DNA of 64,000 nt, taken from NCBI RefSeq assembly GCF_949628265.1, contig NC_088788.1, positions 30,738,335-30,802,334 on the forward strand, given 5' to 3'. Numbering within the stretch: the stretch's first letter is position 1; every line of letters starts with the position of its first letter. Under the pieces are notes generated by a model, which saw only the letters and a list, made by a program, of their open reading frames with translations, was not told where the DNA came from and searched no databases. Both the position numbers and the translations under genes were made by a program. The DNA is from Cloeon dipterum (lineage: Eukaryota > Arthropoda > Insecta > Ephemeroptera > Baetidae). This document shows, in pieces, positions 1 through 46,500 of this stretch.

Positions 1-1317
1 GGTTTTGGTATTCAACTTTAACATAATTCTTTACTTTAAAAACCTCCAAAACTTCAGAGCTGAATCTAAGGGAGTGATATTAAATGATTGAATTATTTTC
101 CTTAACTTTTAAATGTGTACCCTGTACTATTGGCATTCATTAATTTTCTAACCCCTGATATAATTTCCACATTGTACAATTATTTTAGATGTTTGTTCCA
201 AGATGTAATGCCGACCAATTAGTTTGCAGTCGACCTTTCCGTGAGCGAAAAAAATATCTGTTTGGATACATACCTACATTCTTAAAAAACAATTACAATC
301 TAAAATTCAAACACACAACAGTCTCATCACATGACACGATTTCAGATTGATCAGAAATTCTGCAAGACCCCACAGATCAATAAATAATTATGATTTCCGT
401 CTTATGTGAGTCAAATCTGGGTAAAAGACTGATTTCATGCAAAATGTTCCGCGTATATAGCTGGTTTAGATGATTTTGGCATTTTTAAACAGTTTTGAGT
501 ATAGGCTTTGGCTTCAAAATTTCAATATTCGTGCTTATTTAATGGTCTCTCAAAAAAGTCCTACGTTTTAACTTCACAGCCGTAACGATTCAATTTAGTT
601 CAAATTTAACTTTTACTTGTTGTTTGTTTCAACGCGAGTACCTTTTCATATAATTAATCAATATGCCCACCACCAAAATAACCACGGAGTAGGCAGTGCC
701 GAAATACCAACACCACATCATCAAAGACACAAAAGTTTTCATCCGTGCCCAAATCATAATGTAAATTGGTATTTTCTGGCTGCGTGCCGCCGGCCGTGTT
801 CGAAAAGTATCCCTCTCGCCGACCATGAAATAACACACACACATCTAACAGCAGCAAACCCATTACAGAGGCGGACAGCTTCCAATTCGAGTGTCGCGCT
901 GTCCGAGCAGCCCTCTCATCCCCGTTTATAATTGAATGGCAAGATGAATTCTCGTGTTGGTTAATGGCCGGACGTAAGGTCGGCAGCAAATCCAAGAGTC
1001 TGGGGCCCGCTCTCGGGGTCTGAAAGGGCTCACAGTAGATCACAATAGGGGCTGCCGGTGGTCTCATTAAAGAATCGGCCCGCCTCCATTCACAGGGAAC
1101 GGCTCTTCCTAATGAGTTGAAAGCGGCGGTGGTGGAGGCGGGAAGCTTTGCGAGGCCGACAGAAAAAAAGGAGCAGGAAGTTCGAGATGGCTCTCGTGGG
1201 GACGTGCATATAAACCCTGTCATGTTGGCGGCGAAAGTAATTAATAAAACCGACCGGGATTATCCTCTCGTCATCATCAAAAAGCAGCCGACTATTTACT
1301 TTATGCCTGGCCCAACG

Positions 1318-1464
<147 letters not shown>

Positions 1465-4400
1465 CCACTGTGTGCGGATCGATCTGCGGCGTTTTCTTGC
1501 CTCCGCAGCACCATCATCCACCACCACCACCACGTGTGGATGCGGCGAAGCCAGTCAGCTCTTCGCTTATTAATGCTCCGATTTCGCAGGCTGCGTGCCT
1601 GTTGTGCCAAGTGCTTTTCCTCGGGCGCGCCACCCAGCCAGCGACGGAGCGAATTTTATTGTGCAGAAAGCTGCCGGCTTTTTTGATTGGAAAGGAAATG
1701 ATGCTGCTGGAGAAGAAGTTTCGTCGCTCATTGCTTCGTCCGCTCGCCGGAATACATCGCGTTGAATTTCCCGAACAATAGATCGAGTTGATCGGTAAAA
1801 GTGGAGTTTGCACGTCGTCCTTGCCGCTTTTTGCCGACTGCTGCACGTTTCCAACTTTCCGCTCCGAGTCGAGCTCTTGTGGAATGCAAAAAACTGCTCC
1901 CTGGAGTCTAAGCCAAGCGCGGAATACGAACACGAACTCGGCGAATGATCAAAACTATTTGCTCAACATACAACTACTATACTTGTATGCTCATAACGCG
2001 TCAATTTTTTTTAATAAAAATGAATTTCAATGTGTGGTTGCAGTAGTAAAAACAAGGCCGGGAAAGCTATTGATATATGATTATCCTGATCTCTGTTAAT
2101 TAATTGGTAGAGGTGTTGCTCTGAAAGAATGATGTTGAACCTTAACATATATCAAGGCGAAATTCCAAGAATCACCCATTTTACAGAGGCTCATGATTTA
2201 TTTTAAAAATGGGATTTTTTCAGACGGTTGTTTGAGTTAAATTACAAAGTTTGGAGTCTTAAATTAAATTTAAGATATGCTTAACAACTTTCTCGCGTTG
2301 ATATGGAGAATTCAAAGTCTAGACATTTCTCTTGAAGCGACCAGAAATTATCTTTATTGCTTTGACCCTTTGAAAGATCTTCGATCTCCTTTTTTAAAAT
2401 GTTAAAAATTAAAAAATTTATAGAGTTAAAATATGCCTCGTTTAATATAGACTAGCATATTATAAAATTTTGTTATCATTTTCCTTTTTATACTTATAGT
2501 CGTCAAAACATCGCTTTTGTTATCTGAAAAACGAGGCGTCTTCAAATTTCAATTTGATTTATATGATTACATGTGGCTCGTACCCCTATCCCCGGTGGAG
2601 TTTTTATCCGATTTACGCATTACCGCAAAAAATAACTGGTCATTCACAAATCGTTTGTTACTTTTGCGCCCATCGCAAACCTAGCTTCGCGAGAGTAGCT
2701 TTCCTTCTTATTTTTCCCAAACAGGCAAAATAATATTCCTTATTCTCTGTGTCCTTCTACAAGAATTTTTTTAACAATGAAAAACAAATCCAACCCTTTG
2801 TCAAAGGCTACTGAGAAAAGGCGCTGTCACAGTATTATTCTGCTCACTAAATTTTTGGTTTATACGAAAATTTTCAAAACGGTGCTCACATGACTCGTGG
2901 AAATATATTTGCTTAGTTTCCTCCCATACAAGCATTAAAACACTACTCGTTGTGGTTGTTGGGTGCTTTCCCATGAATGAGAGGCCGAGTGCGTTCAACT
3001 CGAGCAGCAGTCTCAATTACAACACGCCATTTTCCGTCGGACGCCCGTGGCGGCGAGATAAATGCGTTCGCCAGCCCGCAGCAGCTCGACAATCTGTGAA
3101 AAATCGGAGAGCGAGCGCGCGAGAAAGGAAGGTGCTCCAGAGGGGAGCTGACAGCTTCATGGAGAGAAAAAACTTTCGCACATACTTGATTAACGCTGTC
3201 GCGCGCGCGCACGCCTGCCAGCGATTGTAACTGGAATGCAGCGCGTCTTTGTGCGGGCGTTTGATTTATGACGCCTCGGGCCCACCAGCAAATTCGATTT
3301 CCCGCCGGGGACGCTCGCATTGTTAAATCTCTCGTGAAATCCCCGGCGCTAATTTATGCCCTTGTTTTCGTTCAAACTCGCGCACAATTCAATTTCGCAG
3401 TTATCCAATCCGCCACTTTTTCGCTTCCTGCACGAATCGCCTCAGCAGAGCAGGAAGAAGATATTCGCCAGAAATAAACTGCAGAATGAATAGTCGAATT
3501 CAATTACCGAGCCAATAACCCGAGTTCTAGCTCCAATAGAGAAAATGACGGGGGCGGCGCGGTTGAGTAGACGCGAAATCATCGTTCGAGAGGAATTCCT
3601 GGGGGCAGGCCCGCTTGCATTCCGATAATTGCTCAAGGAGAGCGATAAATTCATCACCGGCCCGATTTCTAATCTGGCTCTCGAATTTCTCAGCGCTGCT
3701 CATTTCCATGCATGTATTCCGACTGACTTGCTGAGGCAGAGCAGCGAATTTGAATAACCACTTGCGCGCCGGCTATGGCCCTCGAGGATGAAAGTCGATA
3801 AGCGCGCTGCTGGCACACGCAGATGGCTTAATTTGAATTTATGGACTGCGATGCTTCATGCAAATTTCGCGCAGATTGAAAGAAGTGGCGAGTGATGAGA
3901 TTTACGGCAACCAGTTGATGAATTGAGAGCAGGTGATGCCCTTTCGATGAAAACATGACAAGAAAGTTTAAGACTGCTACATAGAGCGTGAAATTCGAAT
4001 TTTTTACCCAGGAAATCAGATGAGTTTGCTCGGACTTGAAATTGAGGAGAAAATAAATTCTTACACTCTTCGTGGACAGACAGCACAGATAGCCTCACTG
4101 AGAAGTCTTTACGTTTTAGTTATTTACTTTACTTTTTATGTCAATCTTTAATGACATCATTGATGCGGGACGTGAGTTGTCCATGGGTTGATGCTTGTTA
4201 ATGATTTTTTGAGCGGTGATACAAATAATTTGATATCATTTTGGGAAACGGGACCATCTTTAAAGAAGGGCTGTTTTCACAATTGAAGCTGCTTTCGGGA
4301 AATTGTTTACTTTAATAAGGTATGCCAATTTTTAAGAAATAGGAAAACTGGGTTACCTACATCCAAAACCACATGCATGGATTTTTTTTTGCTTTCTATG

Positions 4401-7400
4401 TATAAAAAATGCACCTCATGAAGTGAAAAATAATATTTGTTTAAAACTATTCAAATATTACCGTTTTGTTCTAATTAATAATCAAGAGTGAGACTTGTGA
4501 GTTTATTTTTTACACACTTTTTTTAAGCTAATAACCAACTCACCCGCGAAGAGAGAAAGTAAATGAATTATGATCCTCACAATTCAATTTTGCTTTCTTT
4601 TCAACTTAACAAAAGCCTTAATTTTTGAAGCTTGGCAGCCTTTCAAGAAGATTAAAAACTGAAAAAACGTCCACAGGTTGTAAACTGTCTTAAACATTCT
4701 TGTCTTATATTTCATAATTATGCAACCGGGAAGGCAGAACTGCCGAGCGTGGTGCATATCTTCTACCCGGCTGCCCCATTATGCTCACTGCCTCGCCTTT
4801 ACGTGAAAACTATACGCATACAGCTTCCAAGCGTGCCACTTTGGAGAAAATTACCAACACAAAAAGCTATTCAGCCAAATAAACTGAAACTGGAAACCAT
4901 TGCTGTGCTCAGCTGCGTGGTAATTGGTGCAGAATAACGGCTTGATAATGGCCGGCAGGGAAAGAAACAGCGCGTACGTGCCTTAATTAGAATTTACCGG
5001 CACACCTGCTCTGCTCACGCCGCGAGCAGTTCGTTTGCACTCGTTTTCAGCAGCAAAACAGAACCGTGCGTTCAAGGCAAGACGCATTTTTCATTTGTCC
5101 TTTGGCCCCGCTGGCCGGCCGCCGGGTGATAGATGGCAGTTTCGCCTCGCCGGCGCTGATTTTGATCGATGCCTCCTGCGGTCGCCGTTGAATTAATGAA
5201 TTCGCGCCACGGGGAAAGCTCCTTTTGCAAACTTTCAGCTCGGACGGTCCAGCTGAGCCAGAGGAATTCTGAGAACGCGGCTCAATTTTTTATGTTGACG
5301 GTGCCTGGAAAAACGATTTGAAAAACGCTTACTCCTATGACGGCAATGAATGTTCAATAAAAAGACCTCAAATGCGAATCATTAGCGGGCGAACTAATTC
5401 GCCAGGCCTCGTTTCCCTCGAAAGCCTTTAAACCGATTAGCAGCTTTTCAATTTAATTAATGCCTCTGGCTGAGCGTTCTTTCTTTCCGGCGGCGCTGCT
5501 GAAAAATGACGAGGCCTGTTTTATGACAAGGGATATAAGTATTACCGTTTTATCGCAGTGAATTTACGGCCGGCCGTTAAGTTTGACACTCGTCGACGAG
5601 TGTAAAAGTCCCTGGAATTCCATTTCGCCGCGCCACAAACGACTCCCTCTGTCCGCCTGCCCTCTGAGAACAATATCCACGCACCCTCAACCAGCTAGCA
5701 TCCATAATTGATTTTCCAATTTTCAAACTTGCCACCGAATAATTATTTGCGAGCGACCCGAGTGTGAAATTGGCACCAAACTGAAATTTCCCAGAAGCGC
5801 CGTCCTGGATTTTCCGCTCGGTGAAGCCAAATTCAGCTCAAGTTGCCCGCACAGCGAAAAAACAGCCGGCCCGACTAATTAAGCTCCATTGTGTCTGCCG
5901 ACGGCGCTGCTGACAACAACCGGACAGATGCCGCTCCGAATGCGCTCACTTGTTCTGCCGCCGCCGATTATTTTTGCCATTGTCACCGCTGTATTGATTT
6001 CGACTGATTTAGCCGCAGCCTGTCAGAGATACGCGGCCGCAGAGGTGGCGATATGGTCAAAGCAACGACACTCTCAAGCTTTCAAACGCCTTGCGTATAT
6101 ATGTGTTTACGCTGTTGATTGAATTAGAAAAAAGATGCAAACATGCCTGCGGAAGGGTGGCTGCAGCGACAACTGATTAAACGTCCACTGCATTCATTGT
6201 GTGAATGTAAGCTCATGGCTATTGTGTTTATGTGCGCAGTCAAAAATTAAAACCCTGTTATTTTTAAGCTCGAGCCAAAAGGTTCAATATTTTGTACCCA
6301 AAAATCGAAGTATTGTTGTAGCAAAACCTCAAATACTGGATATTTTTTATAATAAAATAGGTCCTTTAGATTTTTAAATATACAAGTACACTAAATTTTA
6401 GCTTATACCCAATTTAAAAATATTATTTTTGCAAAGAGAATTTTTTTTTCCTGGATTGTTCAGTACAGTTTTAGTTCACGCTGTCTCTAGGCAATCAGGC
6501 TTACTTTTAAATTCATATAACAATTTGAGCGCTATGTTTCAACATTATTTGGAGTGGAAATTTTGCCACAGTGGTGTGATTAAATTTAATTTACTGATTT
6601 TTACAGTAACAAAAATTTTTACTAGCATTAATTTCTATTTTCATCCCTCAAAATCAAAGTATTTATGTTTGCGGACCCCATAAAAATCTGATATATCGAT
6701 CTACAATGGCTGGAACGGTACAAATCAGCAAGCTGTAAATCGGAGAGAATGCTTGTTATTACGTTCTAAGGTTTTGTTTCAAGTTCAAACTGTTTCCAAT
6801 CGATCAAGTTTTGGTTTTCTTCAAAATAAATGTATGGAAAAAATATTTATTTCCCATTATTTGCTCATTTTTATGTGGGAGCAGATAACTTTGTGTATTT
6901 TCCTTGTAAAATTCAATCTGCCTGTTAAACCGCCACAATCAGAAATTTGAGATAGTCAATAAACGCGTAGAGTTCCATTTTGTCAAGCATATAGTTTAAG
7001 TGCCTCGGTAGATAATATCATTTCTGCACGAGCGAATCGTGCAGTACACACAATGCCGAAAGATATCAGTGAGGAAGAAAAGGCCGATTCGCAGACACGG
7101 GCGGCTTCGGCGCAGAGAGCATTTTCATTTCCATAACGAGCTGGCGCGCTCTGCTCCAAATGTACCGAACTAAACGTGCGCGCGATCTCGTCCCGAGGCA
7201 GCGCCGCTTTTTAAGTTTGTTGAATAAAATCGAGTGGTGCTGATGGTGAGTGTGTTCGCAACCACAGCCAGTCTGTCGCTGGATAGATAGATGATCGGCC
7301 GGCGCTGCTGCTCGCGAGTGTCTGCGTCCACTCACTGCCCACCAGCACCGCAGGTGTTCATTTGTACCCAGGTAAAAAAATCACGCCCGACTCAGTCACG

Positions 7401-34500: not shown

Positions 34501-37500
34501 AACACAAGTATCAGTTCCGTGCCTCCTTCAGGGCCTGGTCTCTCATCACAGCCTAAAAATCCGCATGAGTTAGCCACGCTTGTAATTTTCGCTCCTCTTG
34601 TGAGAGTAACGAACCAAAATATGTGAGAAGTGCAGGGTGATCCATGAAAGGTAAAGAATAAATGTCTCTTTCGTTGATGAAAAAGTTGCGATAGTGGTTT
34701 GGAAATATTTTCACGGCAACTTCTCTCTCCCTCAGAGTAGCGTGCCAAACAGATCCGTACCGTCCTTGACCTGCGCAAAATAATATAATATAGGAGCAGG
34801 CTTCGACTTGTAAGGTGCACTTACCAATCACTTCAATCAGTTTTAAATGTTCAGCACTATACCCAATAAACGAAGAAGTTTCGCTGCCATTCTCCATGGC
34901 GCTTGGGTCATCAGGCAAACCAGACAATCCCGTCTTCTTACGAATAACGTGGATAAGGTATACCAAGCCCAATATCACAACAACTATCAATCCTAAACCA
35001 ATAGCTGCGTAAATAACCATTTCATTCCGTCGCACATCCAGGTCCTCTACGCTGGGAACAGGGGGACCTACAAAAGAGCATACGGTCATTGTAATCTCTG
35101 CTTGATAACTAGGAATATGTCAAATATTTAATTTGAAACAATCCACACAATATACCCCGAGAACGTGAGGTTTTAGTTGGATATGGAACGTAGACACTGG
35201 TTACATTCACATTGCAGAAGTCCCCACTGCAGCAGCAGAACAGATTTAGAGCACTGTTGTAGGCAGTACAGTCGGTTGTCTCGCATTCATGTCCTGACGT
35301 TTTCCAACAACCTGCAACATTTATTTCAGTCTGATTAGCTTTCCAGATCAGATGCATAGTAGGCGCACCGCACGCTTGGATGCCGCATTAAATATTCATT
35401 GCGTATCCCTCAACAGGCCGGATTTAGCGGCTCTCGCGTTCTCGTTCGGACGCCTATTTAAAATTCAATCGCTTCGCAAGTTTTACAAATAAGTGCTCCA
35501 CTATTAGAATGTTACGAGTGCGAAAAGTTTTGCCTATTCGATTCCAAATCGCAAATTATTAGCAGCAATGCAAATATGGCCGCCGCCCAGACTCTTTTTT
35601 TGCGAATCGCACGACGGCGGTGCTTCTTGTGTCGTGCGAGTGATTTTGACGATGCATGCTCTGCTATTGGCGAGCGCTCTCTTTCTCTCCACCTGGCTGG
35701 TGAGCTACTTCAATTTCGCAATACATGCACGCAAGGCACCGAGGCGGCAATGAAAGGAAGAACCCCCTTATTAAGCCCTCCTGTCAAACGCACTGGACTA
35801 TGTAATTGCGACAATTACTATACATACAGCCAATGTGTAGCGGTTGCAAAGGAGGTCAAATAGGGCAAAGTACTGGTACGCGAAGAGTTGGCAGTAAATC
35901 GACTAATCGGGGCCCTACACTCGGCAAGGCTGTTTTTATTAGAAGGGTTAAAAACATTTAACATCACACCAAACAAATTCTTTAAGTGAAAAAAGCAAGT
36001 TGGCAAAAGGAAATAGCCTGCAATCACCACACATCTATAATAACGAGTCTTTTTATTTTTGATAACGATAAGATTCAGTTTCTGTGCAGCAATTAGAAAT
36101 TTATGTTGGCGACCGAGTCTGTCAACTGAACACGCATAAATGATAATTCATCAAATAGGTAGTAATTTTTAACATTTTCCTCTTGTTTATTACGCGGTTG
36201 CCTGGGCCAATTTTAAACTAAAAGTATTACCAAATTAAATCCTTCATATGGTTATAAAGCACAGCAGCATAGATAAATCCAAATGCATGGTTTACTGAAG
36301 TAACTGAAACTGAACAATGTTGCAGCGCACCTTTGTGATTTCCCCTAACCGTGCGTTGCAATGTTTTAAGCGCCAATAGTAGGCGGCAACAAACGACCTA
36401 TCGTTCGTGCCGCGGAAATTTGATCGAAACCTCTACGTCGCCGCTGGACACTTTGATTGATAGTCAAAATTTCCAATGGAAAATTTGACTGATCCCTATT
36501 TCCGACATAACTTTTTTTATTTCAGCCACTTACTTAAGACACGCCTATCGATCAGCTGACATCACAGTTAGTTCCATATAGTGCCGTGAAATATTTAAAA
36601 ACACCAAAAATTAAAGACTCGACTCCTGCTTGATGCTGTTCCGCCATGGCAAGGAGCATGCGCACTGCGTATCGCGTCGCAACATCGCATGCGAATGAAG
36701 AGAAACCAACAGAGAGCTACTAAAATCATAGTTTTAAGCCGTTTTGAATACAGTAAAGTTCTATTTTGGTTTTTAAATGTGCCAGCAGATAAATTTTAAA
36801 ATCACATTACTTTCAGGGTTATAAGTTTTTGAGCAAAAATCTCTGAAAGCAACAAATTGTTGTCCAGTGGTCGATGGATTTTGACGAAAGTTTTTTTTGG
36901 TCAACTTTGCCCTAATTTACCGACAAAACAGTAGAGAAAACTACGATTCCCCAATATTGGCGGGTTTTCCGGGCGTTAAAATTTCAAAATCTGGGAATTT
37001 TGAGTACTTTGCAACTTTGCTAAGGGTGGTCCTTAAACAAAAATTAAAAAACAACTAACTAACTCCTCTCAACAAGGCAAACAACTTTAATGTTGACCTC
37101 TTAAGTGGTAGGTCAAAGGTCAAGGTCATAAAAATTTTTAAATTTTAAACTCAAATTTGAAAATGAACAAACATATCGGAATTTTTTTATTTTTTTCATT
37201 GCCATTTTGTAGAGCATAAAAAATAAAGTGAAAAACATTTAAATTATGAATGGAGTTTTTCCTTATTCTGTAATAAAAAATGAAAACTTCGAAAATCCTT
37301 GTTCTTCGAGGTTGGTGAAAAACGACGATCGACTAAATCTCGGCTTCTAATCATCAGATTTTGAAAAACCGAATACCGTTAGACTCATCTTGACATCCTC
37401 AAGTACATTAAAGGGGTATGAGAGCCACCAACCCCCTACTCCCTTTTAACCCCCTCAATAACGGGAAATTAATTTATTTTACTGCATCTATCTCGATAAA

Positions 37501-40500
37501 AAAACTTTGTGCACCCGAATCTTGGGTTGTGGGGGTCCTATTTACAAAAAAATAAGTACTGATAGACTCATCTTTGAGTGAACTAAGTAACTGAATTGGT
37601 TTGAAGAAGACAATTACTCGTCAACGTCGTGCCAATGGGTTGAAACGGACGAAAAAAATTATAAATTCACGTTATTGAGGGGGTTAAAAGGGGTTTGGGG
37701 GTTGGTGGGTTTCTTACCCCTCTAGTACACTTGAGGACGTCGAGACAAGTCTAACGGCATGTGATTTATTAAAATTTGATGATTAGAAGCCGAGATTTAG
37801 TCGATCGTCGTTTTTCACCAACCTCGAAAAACAAGGATTTTCGAAGTTTTCATTTTTTATTACAGAATAAGGAAAAACTCCATTCCAAATTTAAATGTTT
37901 TTTACTTTATTTTTTATGCTCTACAAAATGGCTATAGTAAAAATAAAAAATTCCGATATGTTCATTTTCAAATTTGAGTTTAAATTTCAAAAATCAATTT
38001 TTATGACCTTGACCTTTGACCTACCACTTTGAGGTCAACATAAAAGTTTTTTGCCTTGTTGAGAGGAGTTAGTTGGATTTTTAATTTTTGTTTTAGGACC
38101 ATTCTGAGCAAAGTTGCAAAGTAAATACTTGAAACTGACTAGAATCTGCAATCGAAAGACAACATGCGGTTATTATAAAATGAAGAAACACACTATTAAT
38201 TGTTGGAAATGCCTAAAGGTGATATATTTTGGTTTAATTTGTTCCTTTTCACCAATGAGGTCCATGAAAATCAATTTTTTGTTGCCCCTGTAAAATTTGC
38301 TACCATAGGGATCAGTCAAATTTTCCATTGGAAATTTTGACTGTCAATCAAAGTGTCCAGCGGCGACGTAGAGGTTTCGATCAAATTTCCGCGGCACGAA
38401 CGCTATGCAAGTGGCCAAAGAAATAATATAATCATACATCTTGCCAAGAACTGTAATTAAATTACGAATACGTTAGGCAGGGAAGGGAAAGTTATAAATT
38501 AATAATTGACTAAGAAAAATCGCCTCCATCTCCATCTTAAACAAATTTGTCGATTTCAATCAAATGTGCACTGGAATCTGAGGGCAGCGGAAAAAGCAAA
38601 CTACCTCTACCTCTATGTACTCACTTTGATTTATATTTAATTTATAGCTTAATTAGTTATTTATATGTAAAACGTATCTTCCTTTTGTGAAAGCGCGGAC
38701 TAACGTTCTGCTCTCGACTTTTACCTCTATGCAAGGGGTAAAATTTAAGAATAAATCGAAGAATTTCTTCTCTGAAACCGTTAACAATAAAATTTACAGA
38801 AGTCTTGAGGGGTCTTGGCAGAGGGATCGGGTCGGGCATCTCTCCTTACTGCCACGACTACTTTTTATGCTCATAAATACACACCGGGTGTATGTACTTT
38901 CACAGCAGTAAAACAGCAGCGTCGGGACCTCAATTTCGAGACCAACCTGATGCCGCCGCCTCCTTTGCTGGTTGATCGTTTCGCCATTATTTCCGATATA
39001 TAGTCGCAGCACGACAGACGGGATGAGAGAAAAAACGACAGAGATGCACAGCTCTTTTGATCAATCAGCGGCGGGCCGAAAATAATCAGAGTCTGATGAC
39101 GACCGAGAGCAGCAACATGCGCCGTACTGTCCCTCTTTTCCATCAACTTTAATTGTCTCTAGACCGATGTGCCGACAAATCGATTATCTGCTCGTGCTCG
39201 CTTGATAGTCTATAATGCACCTGTGGGGAGGTCAGCCGGCGGCACTAGACGCTGCGCAGACACCGAATAAATTTCCTCTCCCGCTCTCTCACACTACATT
39301 GTATGTGCTTGGTGGCTGGCTGGCTGGCTGGCTTGCTTGCATGTGTGTGCGATAGGGACAAGCCTTTGTCATCAAATGGCTTTAAAAAAGGGAGCATTGT
39401 GCGAAAATAACTGAGTAAGAGCACGTCTGTCTGTCTGTCTCGCCCTCAACGCCTGTCGGCCCGACCCGCGTGCGTGTGCAGGGCAACATACAAACTCGTG
39501 GCTAAGCGCGGAATTCGTAAAGTTAGCAGGCGCTAATTAAACTGCCCAGAATTACGGCCAGATTTAAGGCAACACGCTGGTAACAAGCAACATTGTTAGT
39601 AGACCGGCACAGCACAATGCGAGCCTTCCCTTTGCTCGCGGCGGTGGTGCGACGAAAAAAAAATCAATCATGGGTATTTCAGCGAAGGAAGACGTTAGCT
39701 CACAGAAAATGCTTTTTCTTCGCCTGAAAATAATTTTTTTTTCTCGCGCGACTCGCGGCACGTGTGCGAATGCGTAAAGCCAAATCCGCCTAAGAAAAAC
39801 TCATGTGAGCGGAAGTAAAAAATATGAATATTTGCAAATACTGCGTCGCGTTTCCAGCAGTAAATTTTTATTGAAAACATAAAATGTGATATTATCCGAA
39901 AACTGAGGGTGTTAACCTATTGTAAAAATTTCTAAATAGGTTTACCGTGATTTTCAAGCATTAAAAAATGCCCAGGATGTGCGATATATTAATTAAGTTT
40001 CTTAATTTGAAGATTAATGGTAAAATAATGTCAACTTTAGTGTCTTCATGAGAAGTAACAAATTTTATTTTTTAAGAAGAAACAGCAGCTATAGCCTACA
40101 ATTTTGAAGGTCAGGATTTTACAACTTAATTCACAGTTACAGGGATATAATAATGAGATGCAATTTAACAAAATTTATTCATACCACCGTGATGGCTTTT
40201 CGGGATTATATTATAATTTTTTGCACATCATTGCGACGTCTGTGCAATTATTTAAATCCAGAGATAGTCTGTGTGGCTGCGCACGGGTCGACCTTCCTGG
40301 CAAAATCATATCCCTGGAACTCATTACTAATGCAATACATTTGCAACTTTTGGACGCTGGCAAAAAAGGGACCAGAGGCGACCTGCCCGCGCTGAACAGC
40401 GAGACACACAACACACTGCGTGCTGTGTAAAATCAATAGCTAGTCTGGTGGGCAACTTGTGGAACAGGTTAAGTGCAAATTTAAGTGACTGACTCACATT

Positions 40501-43500
40501 TCCAACTCGCACGCTTATTATGTTGCCGCATGGCTCGCCGCACAAAGAAAAATAACGACTTGCGCGGCAACCAAGTCACGGAAAATCCCTCCCTGCCGCC
40601 CGCCAGTGGTTGGCCGACCAAGTCTCGAAATAGCTACTTTTGAAACCACGCCGCACATTGTAATTGCTGCTCGCGGAATTAATATACACCGTGTCCATAG
40701 TTCGATTGTTGGCGGCGTGCCGTTAGATATGGTGCGCGATAGACACGTGTGGAATCTGTAAAGAGCAGGGGGCGAGAAAGATCACGTCGGCGAGCAGGCT
40801 AGCACCTTTCCTGGGCATACAAAGTCGTTATCTAACTACATAACTAGCAAGGCTCTTCAGGCAGTTCAGGCTGTAGGTTTGATTAGAAGCTGAGGTCCCT
40901 GACACTAAATTTTAATATTTATGTATATTTAAAATTAGCTTGTCGTTGATAACGAAACGTGCAAACTATGGATCTCTCAAATATATTTAATTGAATACAT
41001 CTAAAAGAAATCAAGAACTGCGAGGCTTGATTTTAAAATCCAATTCAGTTTATTTCTCCAAAATAAATAATTAAACTATTTAAATTATAAAAAAATTAGC
41101 AATCTTATTTTGGAGAAATTAGGCTTTGTAGTGTTAGCGAACAACTCGCCGAAACTCATAGTTAAAACAGTAGAAATGTTTACCACTATAATATACTCTA
41201 ATCGTTCGCCATTCGCCACATTACATCCTTTACTACATAACTACATAATAAATGTTTACTGTTTTACTTTAAATTATTATGCTTTTAGAGTTATCATTCC
41301 TAAATTAACTCCCCGAATTCCATGGTTCAAATGTGAATATTTCTAGCTTTTGCTCTTTCAACGCATCTTTGAACTGTTTTAGCTACGGCCTTCCAGATAA
41401 TGTTTATTAAATGTACAAGATGCTCGAAACCCAAAATGCAGATAAAAGTTAAAGAGCATAATTTCAACGAAATTGAGCATATGTGGAAGAGAAGAAATGA
41501 GCTGGAATGGAACATCAACAATTGAATGTGTCTTGGATTTGACAGCACCAATAAAGACCCCTCTGGCTGCGCAAGTGGTGCCCAGAGATAAAGAGCAAAT
41601 AATGAGCTTCTGGCCATTAGTCCTTTGGGCCGGCGGGTTCTGTGCCGCTGCGGCGCTCGAATTGGCGCAGCATATTTCACTCTGTGAGTCGCACAAGGCC
41701 CAAGTGGCTGAAAGCGTGCTGCCTCGTGCGAGAGGGCGCACATTTGAAAGGCCTAATCGCTTCCACGTAAGTGCTCAATTAGCCGACAGAACAAATCGCG
41801 CTCCCGCACACTAATTGTTTCGCAGAAACGGCAGCCAATTCCACGGATACTGGCTAAACTATAATTCTGTTCGCGCGACGGCGCGAACGCACTTTCGCAA
41901 CAAGGACGGAAACCATACAGACACCGGATGGGAGTAAATAAAACAATTTCAATATGATGCTATGCAGGTGAAGTGCACCGAGCGGTAGACGCGAAAAGCT
42001 GTCGTCTTTTATTAATCTGACGGCACCAATCTGCCGGTGCCTGCGGTCGAATGTGCGCTTCCTCTTTGCATAAATCGCTGTCTGCTTGCGTGCACCTTTC
42101 AAACGACTTCGGGCTAAAATTGCCCAGCTGATAAGGGCGCGGCTTTTGTTAATTTTCTTGATGGATTCATCCAACTTAACGGTGTCAATCACAATATAAT
42201 GGTTCCGAATCACGCTTTCAACTAAATGTCTGGCACTGCGCTGCGTGATCTCCAAACGTTTGATTTTTTTTAGCTGCAAGAAGAACAATGATTTCTTAAG
42301 CCGGCAAAAAAAAATTGCAGCAAAAATTCAAAGGCGTTGATTAAATTGAAGGTCACGACGTATTTACGGCAGACTGAATTTCAGATGATAACAGGGAAAT
42401 AAATGTAGTATGCGTTGAAATCATGCTCGATTCCACAATCTCATTTGATTAAGAACTCGAAACATTTGTTGTGCGGTATTTTTGAAAGTCAGGAGATAAG
42501 TTACATGGATACCAATATTCCTCTTTTATAAATAGCCATATTCTGTTTTACAATGAGGAGCCCAAGTTGCTTGACATCACGACTAACTGTCACAATATTT
42601 ATGAAATAACTGCAAAGATTTACAATCTTTGAATTATATCAACGTATACTCGGCCAAGGATTATTTAAATTTCTCAATCGTGAGGACTTCCCAAAAAACC
42701 TTTTGCTAAAATTTTTTTTGGATATAATGGATGGGACATTTTCAAAAGGCAAAATTTTCAGACCACTCATTTCACTTCGTCAGCACTTGATATACAAGGG
42801 GCGCTTTTTCTCATTCACTCGCTCGGTGCGGAAAAGCATTCATATTCAAGACGCGAAATAGGAGGCTACGCCGCGTGGCGTAAATTATGCAGTGTTTGTT
42901 CGCGAAAGCCTTAAAATGAAAGAGGAGTAATGAAAAACCAAAGAACTGCTGCTACACGCACCAGGAGCACGAGACGGTGCAGACGGAAAATAAAGCTTCT
43001 GTTGCACACGAAATTCGTTGACGCGAAAAAAGCCGAGAAAAAGGAAAAGAGGTAGCGGTCACCGCCTGGCGACTGCAGACGCATTGACGCTAGCAACCAC
43101 CAACCCTGTTTTGTTTATATTACGGTCGAGTCTCATGGGAGAAATTCACACCTGAAGTGCGAGAGAGAGAGAGAGAGAGAGACCAACTGAAGAGAAGCTT
43201 CACTTGTAATTCTATCAACTGAAATAGGCGCGAGCGAGTGCGAAATTATAATGTTTCATTGTACGTTCTCGTTCCCGGCTCTTTACTGGGTGTCAGTTTA
43301 AAGTAGATGTGCAAAGCTTGCAAATTATTTAAAGCAAACACCCCATTGTCTGCAGATGTTTCCACAGCAATACAAAAAGGACCGACTGACTTGCGAAGGA
43401 ACACTTTATGATGCTACAATGAAAACCCCTGATCAACACAAGACCAAATGCAACAACTCGAAGAGATTCGGCGTGGCATCAAACTCCCAGTAGTTCGATG

Positions 43501-46500
43501 ATTATTTCGTTCGCTTTTTTTGTCAAGATTTACCACTATTAAAGTATACATTCAACTTCTAAATTATACAAAACCCCTGTAGCTGTTGCATTTGCGGTTA
43601 CTATCTACTTAAATTAAGATGGTGAACACCCGATTCTCTCACCCGACTGTCGTCTTGAGGCTCAGCGCAATTGGAAACAATGGTCAATTAATTATTCTCA
43701 GCTTCAAGTGCGAGTACAAGAGAGCATAATGATGACAATATTCACCAGTGACATCATCCGATATATACAAAGTTAGGTCGCTAACCTTGTAGCCACCGCA
43801 ACGCCCGCCGAGCCTCTTTTACGCTTTTACGATTCGGGAAAGTGAGCCGTCTGGTCAAGAAAGCCTTAAAAGTCTCAAATATTTCAAGTCGCTTTGCCAC
43901 ATAGGTCGGGAATGTTTCGAAAATTTTGGCCTGTCTGAGAATTTGCTTAAAGATTTAAATCGGGTGTTAAACATTTCAACGCATTTTTCTTTTTCAGGCA
44001 CTAGCATTGTATGCTCGCCTCGCGAGAGCGAAATTCATTTCAATTGTTCCACGCAGGCATAACAGTAATCGTGGCAATTGTCAGCTTCAAGGAGTACACT
44101 GGAGGTAAGTTGCGGTCCACAATGGAAAAATCAACCGCCGAATTGTGCAAGAAGTGGTTGAGAAATGCGCGGCTGGCTCGAAAATAGAAATAAAAAAGGG
44201 CGTCAGCGGATTTTGCATCGGCGAGCGAGCGATAGGTGCAAAGTCAAGAGCGAAGTGAAGAACGAGCGAACGAACGTACGAATGAACAAATGAGCCAGCC
44301 AACGAACAGCCGACTCCTCCCGGTTTGCATTGCAGCCGCCTGATTAATTTTTACAGCCGCAGCGAAGGGCATTCGCACATATAAAAATGATTGCGTTCCT
44401 ACACTAGAGCTCTTTATTCGGGATTAATGGTCCAGTTAGTTGCTCGAGAGTATTTCGTTGCCGCCGAGCTGCGTTTTTTTATCTTGGTTTTCTCTCCAGA
44501 GACTTTGCCCGGCGTCATCGCACTATGCACTCGCCGACCGATTATTTCGCAAGAGCGCTCTGACCGCTTCTTGCGAGCCTCCAATTTTGGAACAATCGAG
44601 TATGTGAGCTATGCAAAAGTAAAGCAAGGTAATTTCTCTCGCAGACTCTGCGTCAGCAGACCTCGCTGTTGAAATGTATTTTTGAGACGGAATGAGAATC
44701 GAAAAATGCATTATATTAAATGGGGTGTGCCGTGTTTTTGTTGCTAGGGACGATTACCTTTTATTTCTTGTACATCGTTTTTTATAAAGAACTGAAAAGA
44801 ACGAGCTAAAAATAATTCTGCCTCCGATAAAGTCTAGCTGCAATTGATGCGGACCTGCTCACAGCCCTTACAATTAAGGGGGTTGCTGCCTGGAGACAGG
44901 ATAGCGTAGTGGACCGGTCGAGGTCTGCGCTACGGAGACTTGTGACCAGCCTTTTGTAATTCTCCTTTGTACACGCACTTCAAAATTGTCATTGTCTTTC
45001 TCAATATTTCACACGGAAAAATGCTTCTCATGAATTAAGTTAACATACTAAATATGGTGCTGTGCTAGTTACTTTGCTCTCTAAATGACCTATCTGAATA
45101 GTTTGTACTACGGAAGTGTAAATGGTAGTATTTTTGTTATAAATTAACGATATAACCGAAACGCTATTCCAACAAATTTTTTTTAACTTATCAGCAGTAC
45201 TTACTTATTTTGCTTTGTACTTTCAACGATACTTTTAAAGGAGCAAAAATGCACTTGGATAGCCGGCGTAAGTTCATGCTCTAAATATAGCTTTAATTAA
45301 TCCAGACAGACGTCATTTATTTCTCGCTAGAAGTCTGCTCTTGTACGCACGCATCAAGAATCTCTCCAGCCGGCGCCGAGTGGACGCGGCGTGTTTTAAT
45401 GCAATCAACATTCAAGACTGTCATCACATGCACACGCCGAGAAATTTATTTTTAAGAGCTTTTCTCGCACAGCATATTAAGCACCGAGCTCAAGGGACTT
45501 GCATTCTTATCGTTGGGGAGGCTGCTTCTGAATTTATTGCTCGCCTATCAAACAGCCGGCGTCAAAACCATTCACAAGTGCTTCTTTCCGCTGCACTTCT
45601 TTAGCTGCTATAATTGCCGACGCAATAATTACTCAACAAATCCGGCTAGCGAAATGGCAGTTTTAAAATAAATTAGCTACTCACCCTGTTTCAAGATGGT
45701 TTGATTAAAGTCATTTTCAGTCCAAACTGTGAAGCAGTGTTCATGCTCATCAGCACAAATGACCGTGTTGTTGTTTGCTACCTCCTGTGATATAGGATTT
45801 TTACAAATATTAGCAAAACTTAAATAATAACTTTGGTGTTGTTGGAATTATGCTCTGCGAAATGTAAAAGATCCACAATGAAGATTAATTAATCATCAAG
45901 TAGGATTGGTAGAAATCTCCCTAATTTATAGTTATAACATTAACGTAGCGATTTATACTAATGAAAAAATTAAGTGACAGGTGCCAGACATTGAGTCAAA
46001 ACACGTTGGGTGAATTAAGTCTTGCAGCGTCCATCAGCAATAAAAAAATGTATCCTAATTATTGTAAGAATATTTCGTGAATATTTGAATCATAATCACC
46101 TCAGCAATTGTGGACATGTCAGTGAACCCATTCGAGATTACAGAGTATGCACACTGTCGGGGCTTAGCATGGCCAGGAGCAGCTGAAACAAAAGAAAGTA
46201 CAAATTGATCACAAACGAAAACAAATTGAAGTGCAAATTTTAACCTTCAACAGTTTTATAATAGCTAATAGTATTTCTTTTGACCTCTTTAAAGGAAGAG
46301 CAAATATATCGCACTGTCGATTAAAAACAAACAAACTTTCCAATTCTATCTTAACGAACATTATTTGAGAATTTTAAGTAGATACCTTTCACTTCAATCA
46401 TTTGCATTTTATTTATAATTTACATGACAGCGACGAGTTACATAAATTAGAGCTCGTTTTAAAAGGAAATAAGATAAAATTGATCATGATTTTATGTAAT

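Follow-up and report, generated by a model that had tools for sequence, protein, structure and literature searches.

A composite mobile element of 2,001 bp occupies positions 36,402-38,402 of the window (the whole 64,000-nucleotide stretch of Cloeon dipterum DNA that was analysed). It is most readily explained as a non-autonomous cut-and-paste transposon, H, in which a foldback element, F, had landed before the combined H+F unit spread, a reading to which we give a probability of about 0.88. H and F are two families with separate ends and separate duplications, one relative of H that lacks F is joined precisely at F's first base, and eight copies of the composite are near-identical. From these observations we infer the order of events, and also that H was moved by the product of a transposase-like gene, of which a broken copy lies in the F-less relative, L018. 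H, with its 98-bp inverted ends (beginning CGTTCGTGCC) and 4-bp AT-rich duplication, would have been hit by F, with its GAGCC ends and 337-bp repeats. The F copy inside H would then have aged and turned into a passenger, having lost its right end, some H DNA with it, and a piece of its centre. Finally, a transposase supplied in trans and acting on the H ends would recently have carried the 2-kb unit as a whole to eight or more sites.

On this reading, the case shows a palindromic transposon outliving the loss of its own end by riding in another transposon, and it tells apart two families that repeat annotation would lump together as a single "foldback". An earlier note, made from the sequence alone, had described the same structure as one foldback element with later internal insertion or deletion. 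Its observation was confirmed and its interpretation partly supported: the palindrome itself appears to be the insertion, a member of a separate foldback family in a host with unrelated ends.

Boundaries and copies of the composite

The composite is a non-autonomous DNA transposon flanked by the target-site duplication CTAT on the left (36,398-36,401) and on the right (38,403-38,406), exactly where the earlier note had placed its limits. (Element positions, el, are counted from el 1 at window position 36,402.) The left terminal inverted repeat of H (36,402-36,499, plus strand, starting with CGTTCGTGCC) pairs with the right one (38,305-38,402, minus strand) at 97 of 98 bp; the ends had been put down as exact 20-bp complements, and they do pair, but over a much longer distance. 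Inside the left repeat lies left-specific H DNA (36,500-36,830, plus strand), at whose end a TTTTT marks the insertion point of F. F itself (36,831-38,123, plus strand) has an intact left end (GAGC...), has lost its right end and has a shortened tandem-repeat centre, and it is followed by 181 bp of right-specific H DNA (38,124-38,304, plus strand). Within F, arm A (37,005-37,470, el 604-1069, plus strand) and arm B (37,652-38,123, el 1251-1722, minus strand) are separated by a spacer (37,471-37,651, el 1070-1250). The arms are about 470 bp each and about 88% complementary; with el 604-1070 set against el 1251-1722, 172-180 bp lie between them, in agreement with the several hundred bases of arm and the spacer of about 180 bp reported earlier. 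"Near-palindrome of 2 kb" is thus apt for the 98-bp ends and for some 470 bp of each inner arm, but the remainder is unpaired. The unpaired parts amount to 505 bp on the left (el 99-603) and 181 bp on the right (el 1723-1903), a difference of 324 bp where about 300 bp of extra, non-matching left DNA had been estimated. Insertion of F, together with the loss of its right end, would account for this inequality. The longest stop-to-stop frame on either strand is 66 aa, and the earlier note was right to call the element a complete non-autonomous transposon flanked by 4-bp duplications.

The whole H+F unit is present in at least eight copies, that of the window included, in a genome search of 190 Mb in 10 contigs (all genome copy counts are lower bounds). 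Copies with coinciding ends had been named as the test of the earlier reading, and in all eight the ends coincide. The copies are 1,993-2,002 bp long and differ pairwise by 0-0.85% substitutions (mean 0.47%, 28 pairs), with 24 indel columns in the eight-copy alignment. Every one is flanked by an exact 4-bp duplication (CTAT, AAAA, AAGT, AAAT and, four times, ATAT). Two composites at separate sites show no substitution over 2,002 bp and carry different duplications, AAAA in one and ATAT in the other, which argues for recent mobility of the composite. That the palindrome arose by chance is ruled out by the seven further copies with both ends the same. None of the 31 substitution columns falls within the 196 end columns of the H terminal repeats in the eight copies (P 0.04), a value too weak to be used as a sign of selection on the ends. 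In the genome search, the left-hand DNA between 36,578 and about 36,819 found no match outside the eight composites, and the right-specific part of H was found at nine places, namely the eight composites and L018 (89%). With their exact ends, the composites should be usable for dating and for transposition tests.

The window's copy sits in a coding intron of 10,373 bp (35,312-45,684, minus strand), as indicated by the GTGAGT donor and TTGCAG acceptor at its borders and by the open frame of the joined exons. On the minus strand, an ectodomain exon with its last base at 45,685 joins in frame to the following exon, which starts at 35,311. The closest solved relative of the receptor kinase exon is BMPR2 (E 2.3e-52), and the ectodomain likewise matches BMPR2 (E 4.6e-10). 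The fly gene of this receptor kind is wit, and the placement of the element in a wit intron was thereby upheld.

F as a foldback family and its junction with H

F occurs widely without H. A query with the F arm gave at least 69 matches when 40 of the 496 first-look candidates were scored, of which 16 are the composites' own arms. The stretch that adjoins the left arm on its outer side (el 430-589) found 33 further stretches with 81-87% identity, each of which begins in or close to el 419-450. The four F copies that were fetched (L070-L073) resemble the composite over el 416-1722 only, with no part of H. F's own end, GAGCCAYATTCCGTCAAAGC (beginning GAGCC), is present at 89 genome places with no more than 3 mismatches in 35 bases (a reversed-pattern control gave 0), and these ends make up 33 facing pairs, the remaining 23 being unpaired at the 3-mismatch limit. 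Among ten fetched pairs, the 4-bp duplications are exact in eight and have one mismatch in the other two; they are also exact in L071 and L073, giving 10 of 12 overall, a count that omits L070 (right end cut) and L072 (flanks themselves palindromic). L071 and L073, which are complete, have arms 95.8% and 96.7% alike, respectively, over about 1,190 bp, and F arms contain tandem repeats with a period of 337-341 bp in 2.1-2.8 copies per arm. F thus has the features of a foldback (FB-like) element: its inverted arms are long, nearly identical and internally repeated in tandem, and it makes a target-site duplication.

The lengths of the F pairs form a ladder. Steps of 337 bp counted from 2,637 bp place 25 of the 33 pairs within 0.06 unit of a whole step: thirteen at 2,626-2,642 bp, seven at 2,284-2,303, three at 1,942-1,962 and one each at 1,623 and 3,646. 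When the reference rung is left out, 12 of 20 fit. Eight pairs are off the ladder (362, 647, 1,411, 1,412, 1,511, 1,564, 1,843 and 1,860 bp). The ladder is a sign of the gain and loss of whole repeats inside foldback arms, and as such offers a natural record of changes in repeat number. In one F copy, L072 (G000:C3:13652550-13655500), about 314 bp of flank is mirrored on both sides and had no other match in the genome search; this is either a true inverted duplication or an assembly hairpin.

Could the composite nevertheless be a single foldback family, its arms formed in situ by hairpin-templated duplication and altered by later internal indels, as the earlier note proposed? It does resemble one foldback unit whose outer inverted repeats are short and whose inner ones are long, and one-family foldbacks of such a build are known, for example Tetris (PMC4079207). 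However, the inner palindrome occurs without H, with its own ends and duplications, and in a one-family element the outer ends should be the ends of the palindrome arms; here the outer ends belong to H and the palindrome to F. A common origin of all the arms also does not fit their divergence, since the H ends are 99% alike and the composite's F arms 88% (those of the complete copies L071 and L073 being about 96-97% alike). A single-family origin is therefore very improbable. For the preferred reading, F landing in H, the same gradient is informative about age. The window's F is 83-86% identical to the complete copy L071; compared with the latter, its right end is short of the final 173 bp and its repeat centre of about 1.2 kb. 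With arms at 88% rather than 96-97%, it is probably an old F copy that had already become a passenger when the recent spread began.

The junction can be examined by way of L018, which looks like a relative of H without F. Its left match to the composite covers el 362-429 (36,763-36,830, 79% identity) and stops one base before F's GAGC, which in the window begins at 36,831, immediately after TTTTT. This limit at el 429 was found with the whole composite as query. The right match covers el 1725-2001 (about 90%), and 135 bp of other DNA separates the two. The bases at the join read TTTTTATCG in L018 and TTTTTGAGC in the window. It is because similarity stops at F's first base and resumes 135 bp further on that L018 resembles H without F; it is only a partial empty site, since there is no likeness to the left of el 347. 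Alignments of F copies extend up to 14 bp to the left of the F start, an overrun taken as chance in AT-rich DNA.

Some points count against F having transposed into H and spread with it. L018 is the only F-less relative of H that was found, a partial empty site at about 90% on the right and 79% on the left, and the H sequence that bordered F on the right has been lost, which leaves no pair of flanks in which to recognise a duplication made by F. The missing right end of F and a right junction without a clean duplication would also suit a different course, in which H, while transposing, picked up F DNA through template switching or gap repair. The left junction speaks against such a capture: it lies at the first base of F's end, right after a TTTTT that is also present in the F-less L018, and a random capture would rarely be expected to start there. 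We consider capture during repair unlikely, and prefer insertion of F by transposition.

A candidate mover of H

What moved H? L018 contains transposase-like frames, interrupted by a stop, that run in the direction to be expected if they belonged to H. With Pfam, one piece gave a DUF7869 match below the cut-off (E 1.1e-4, 22.3 of 26 bits); the pieces gave no NCBIfam and no PDB match, no THAP domain was detected in those scanned, and an AlphaFold model of the transposase piece was too poor for use (pLDDT 42). Relatives of the frame lie at two other sites on the same chromosome, C2:36,315,687-36,316,908 (66-75% identity) and C2:11,809,437-11,810,354 (46-55%). The 3' flank of the L018 frame is 71% identical to the nearer of these (66-75%) up to L018 position 4,463, and similarity to H begins at 4,405, which makes the frame and the H end close neighbours, with an unaligned gap of 58 bp. 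Because the two adjoin, the broken L018 frame is the best candidate for a copy of H's transposase gene, though adjacency in sequence is not proof. The more distant relative (G000:C2:11809437-11810354) has an open 326-aa frame, 46-55% like the L018 pieces and above the DUF7869 cut-off; it is taken as an intact relative, either an autonomous element or a domesticated gene. One further place in the genome also scores above that cut-off.

No intact transposase bearing both H ends was found in the genome, nor was the other H end of L018 within 8 kb at up to 7 mismatches. Among 70 end matches (17 of them exact), there were no facing pairs of H ends 3-10 kb apart beyond separate short elements. One locus considered as a 6-kb autonomous H, L050, turned out to be two elements of 200-219 bp. 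Ten of the open reading frames near other H ends had zinc-finger and SRI domains or nothing, and no transposase; the mover of F was not found either. H's end (about 20 bases) is also carried by short elements of 136-420 bp (L065-L069 and L050), with exact 4-bp duplications in three of seven end pairs checked. In all probability these are older elements that a transposase of the same type mobilised.

The hairpin and known systems

Would the element matter to the gene that holds it? The wit-sense strand of the composite has a predicted fold of -986 kcal/mol, compared with -430 to -551 kcal/mol for five further stretches of 2,001 bases taken from the window, whose composition was not matched to the composite, and its longest unbroken predicted helix is 109 pairs. 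A dsRNA hairpin formed from the wit pre-mRNA is thus structurally plausible. Hairpin RNAs reportedly feed the endo-siRNA pathway in Drosophila, and the earlier note's idea that the composite hairpin might be a source of endo-siRNA or a target of ADAR would be a reasonable one. The strong fold and the 109-pair helix could even mean that the composite functions now, its hairpin giving rise to siRNAs or altering wit splicing or editing. On the other hand, introns are usually spliced out and degraded, Rfam has no match anywhere in the window, and the seven other composites sit at other places; a present function is accordingly quite unlikely. A long shot is that the composite acts as a mobile RNAi trap, H spreading F hairpins into transcribed introns such as that of wit, from which siRNAs would act in trans on the F family. 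If so, the passenger would restrain its own F relatives and might favour its carrier, and F arm length, in steps of 337 bp, could tune the source of siRNA.

How do H and F relate to described elements? No description of either was found in the literature searched, outside of which lie subscription papers and Repbase, and searches of paper texts for the terminal sequences of H and F gave a single match, a short string from a mouse paper on an unrelated subject. FB elements make 9-bp duplications and Galileo elements 7-bp ones. They share the foldback architecture, but their duplication lengths differ from those of F and H, and they are set apart by description. Galileo and the P superfamily, with a 7- or 8-bp duplication and a THAP transposase, were rejected, given the 4-bp duplications here and the lack of a THAP match in the scanned L018 pieces. 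A Sola-like origin of H is a guess, based on the 4-bp AT-rich duplications. Sola2 elements are described as having 4-bp AT-rich duplications of the form AWWT, or ATAT, AAAT and ATTT (PMC3627910). H has 4-bp duplications in eight of eight copies, five of which fit AWWT; this likeness is weak, since other superfamilies have such duplications too. The H ends are 98 bp long, compared with 12-21 bp in the elements treated in that paper (PMC3627910).

The Tetris/DAIBAM foldbacks, from Drosophila virilis and D. americana, resemble F in build. They too are non-autonomous, with long inverted arms and variable numbers of tandem repeats, and have short, deletion-derived relatives with only the ends in common and no intact autonomous partner found (PMC4079207). 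However, Tetris has 8-10-bp duplications and repeats of about 220 bp (PMC4079207), as against 4 bp and 337 bp in F, and Tetris is one family rather than a passenger in another. The four published Tetris primers had, at best, 6-10 mismatches in their 20-23 bases in the composite, L070-L073 and L018, and these mismatches, together with the duplication length, led us to reject identity with Tetris. A nested element that hitchhikes on a DNA transposon is already a known kind, as exemplified by MER6/MER6A, a mariner-type MITE with V-SINE DNA, in which a foreign mobile element was likewise copied by its carrier's burst of transposition (PMC6887750). The passenger in MER6 is the body of a SINE; here, by contrast, it is a foldback DNA transposon, of which this genome still contains numerous independent copies.
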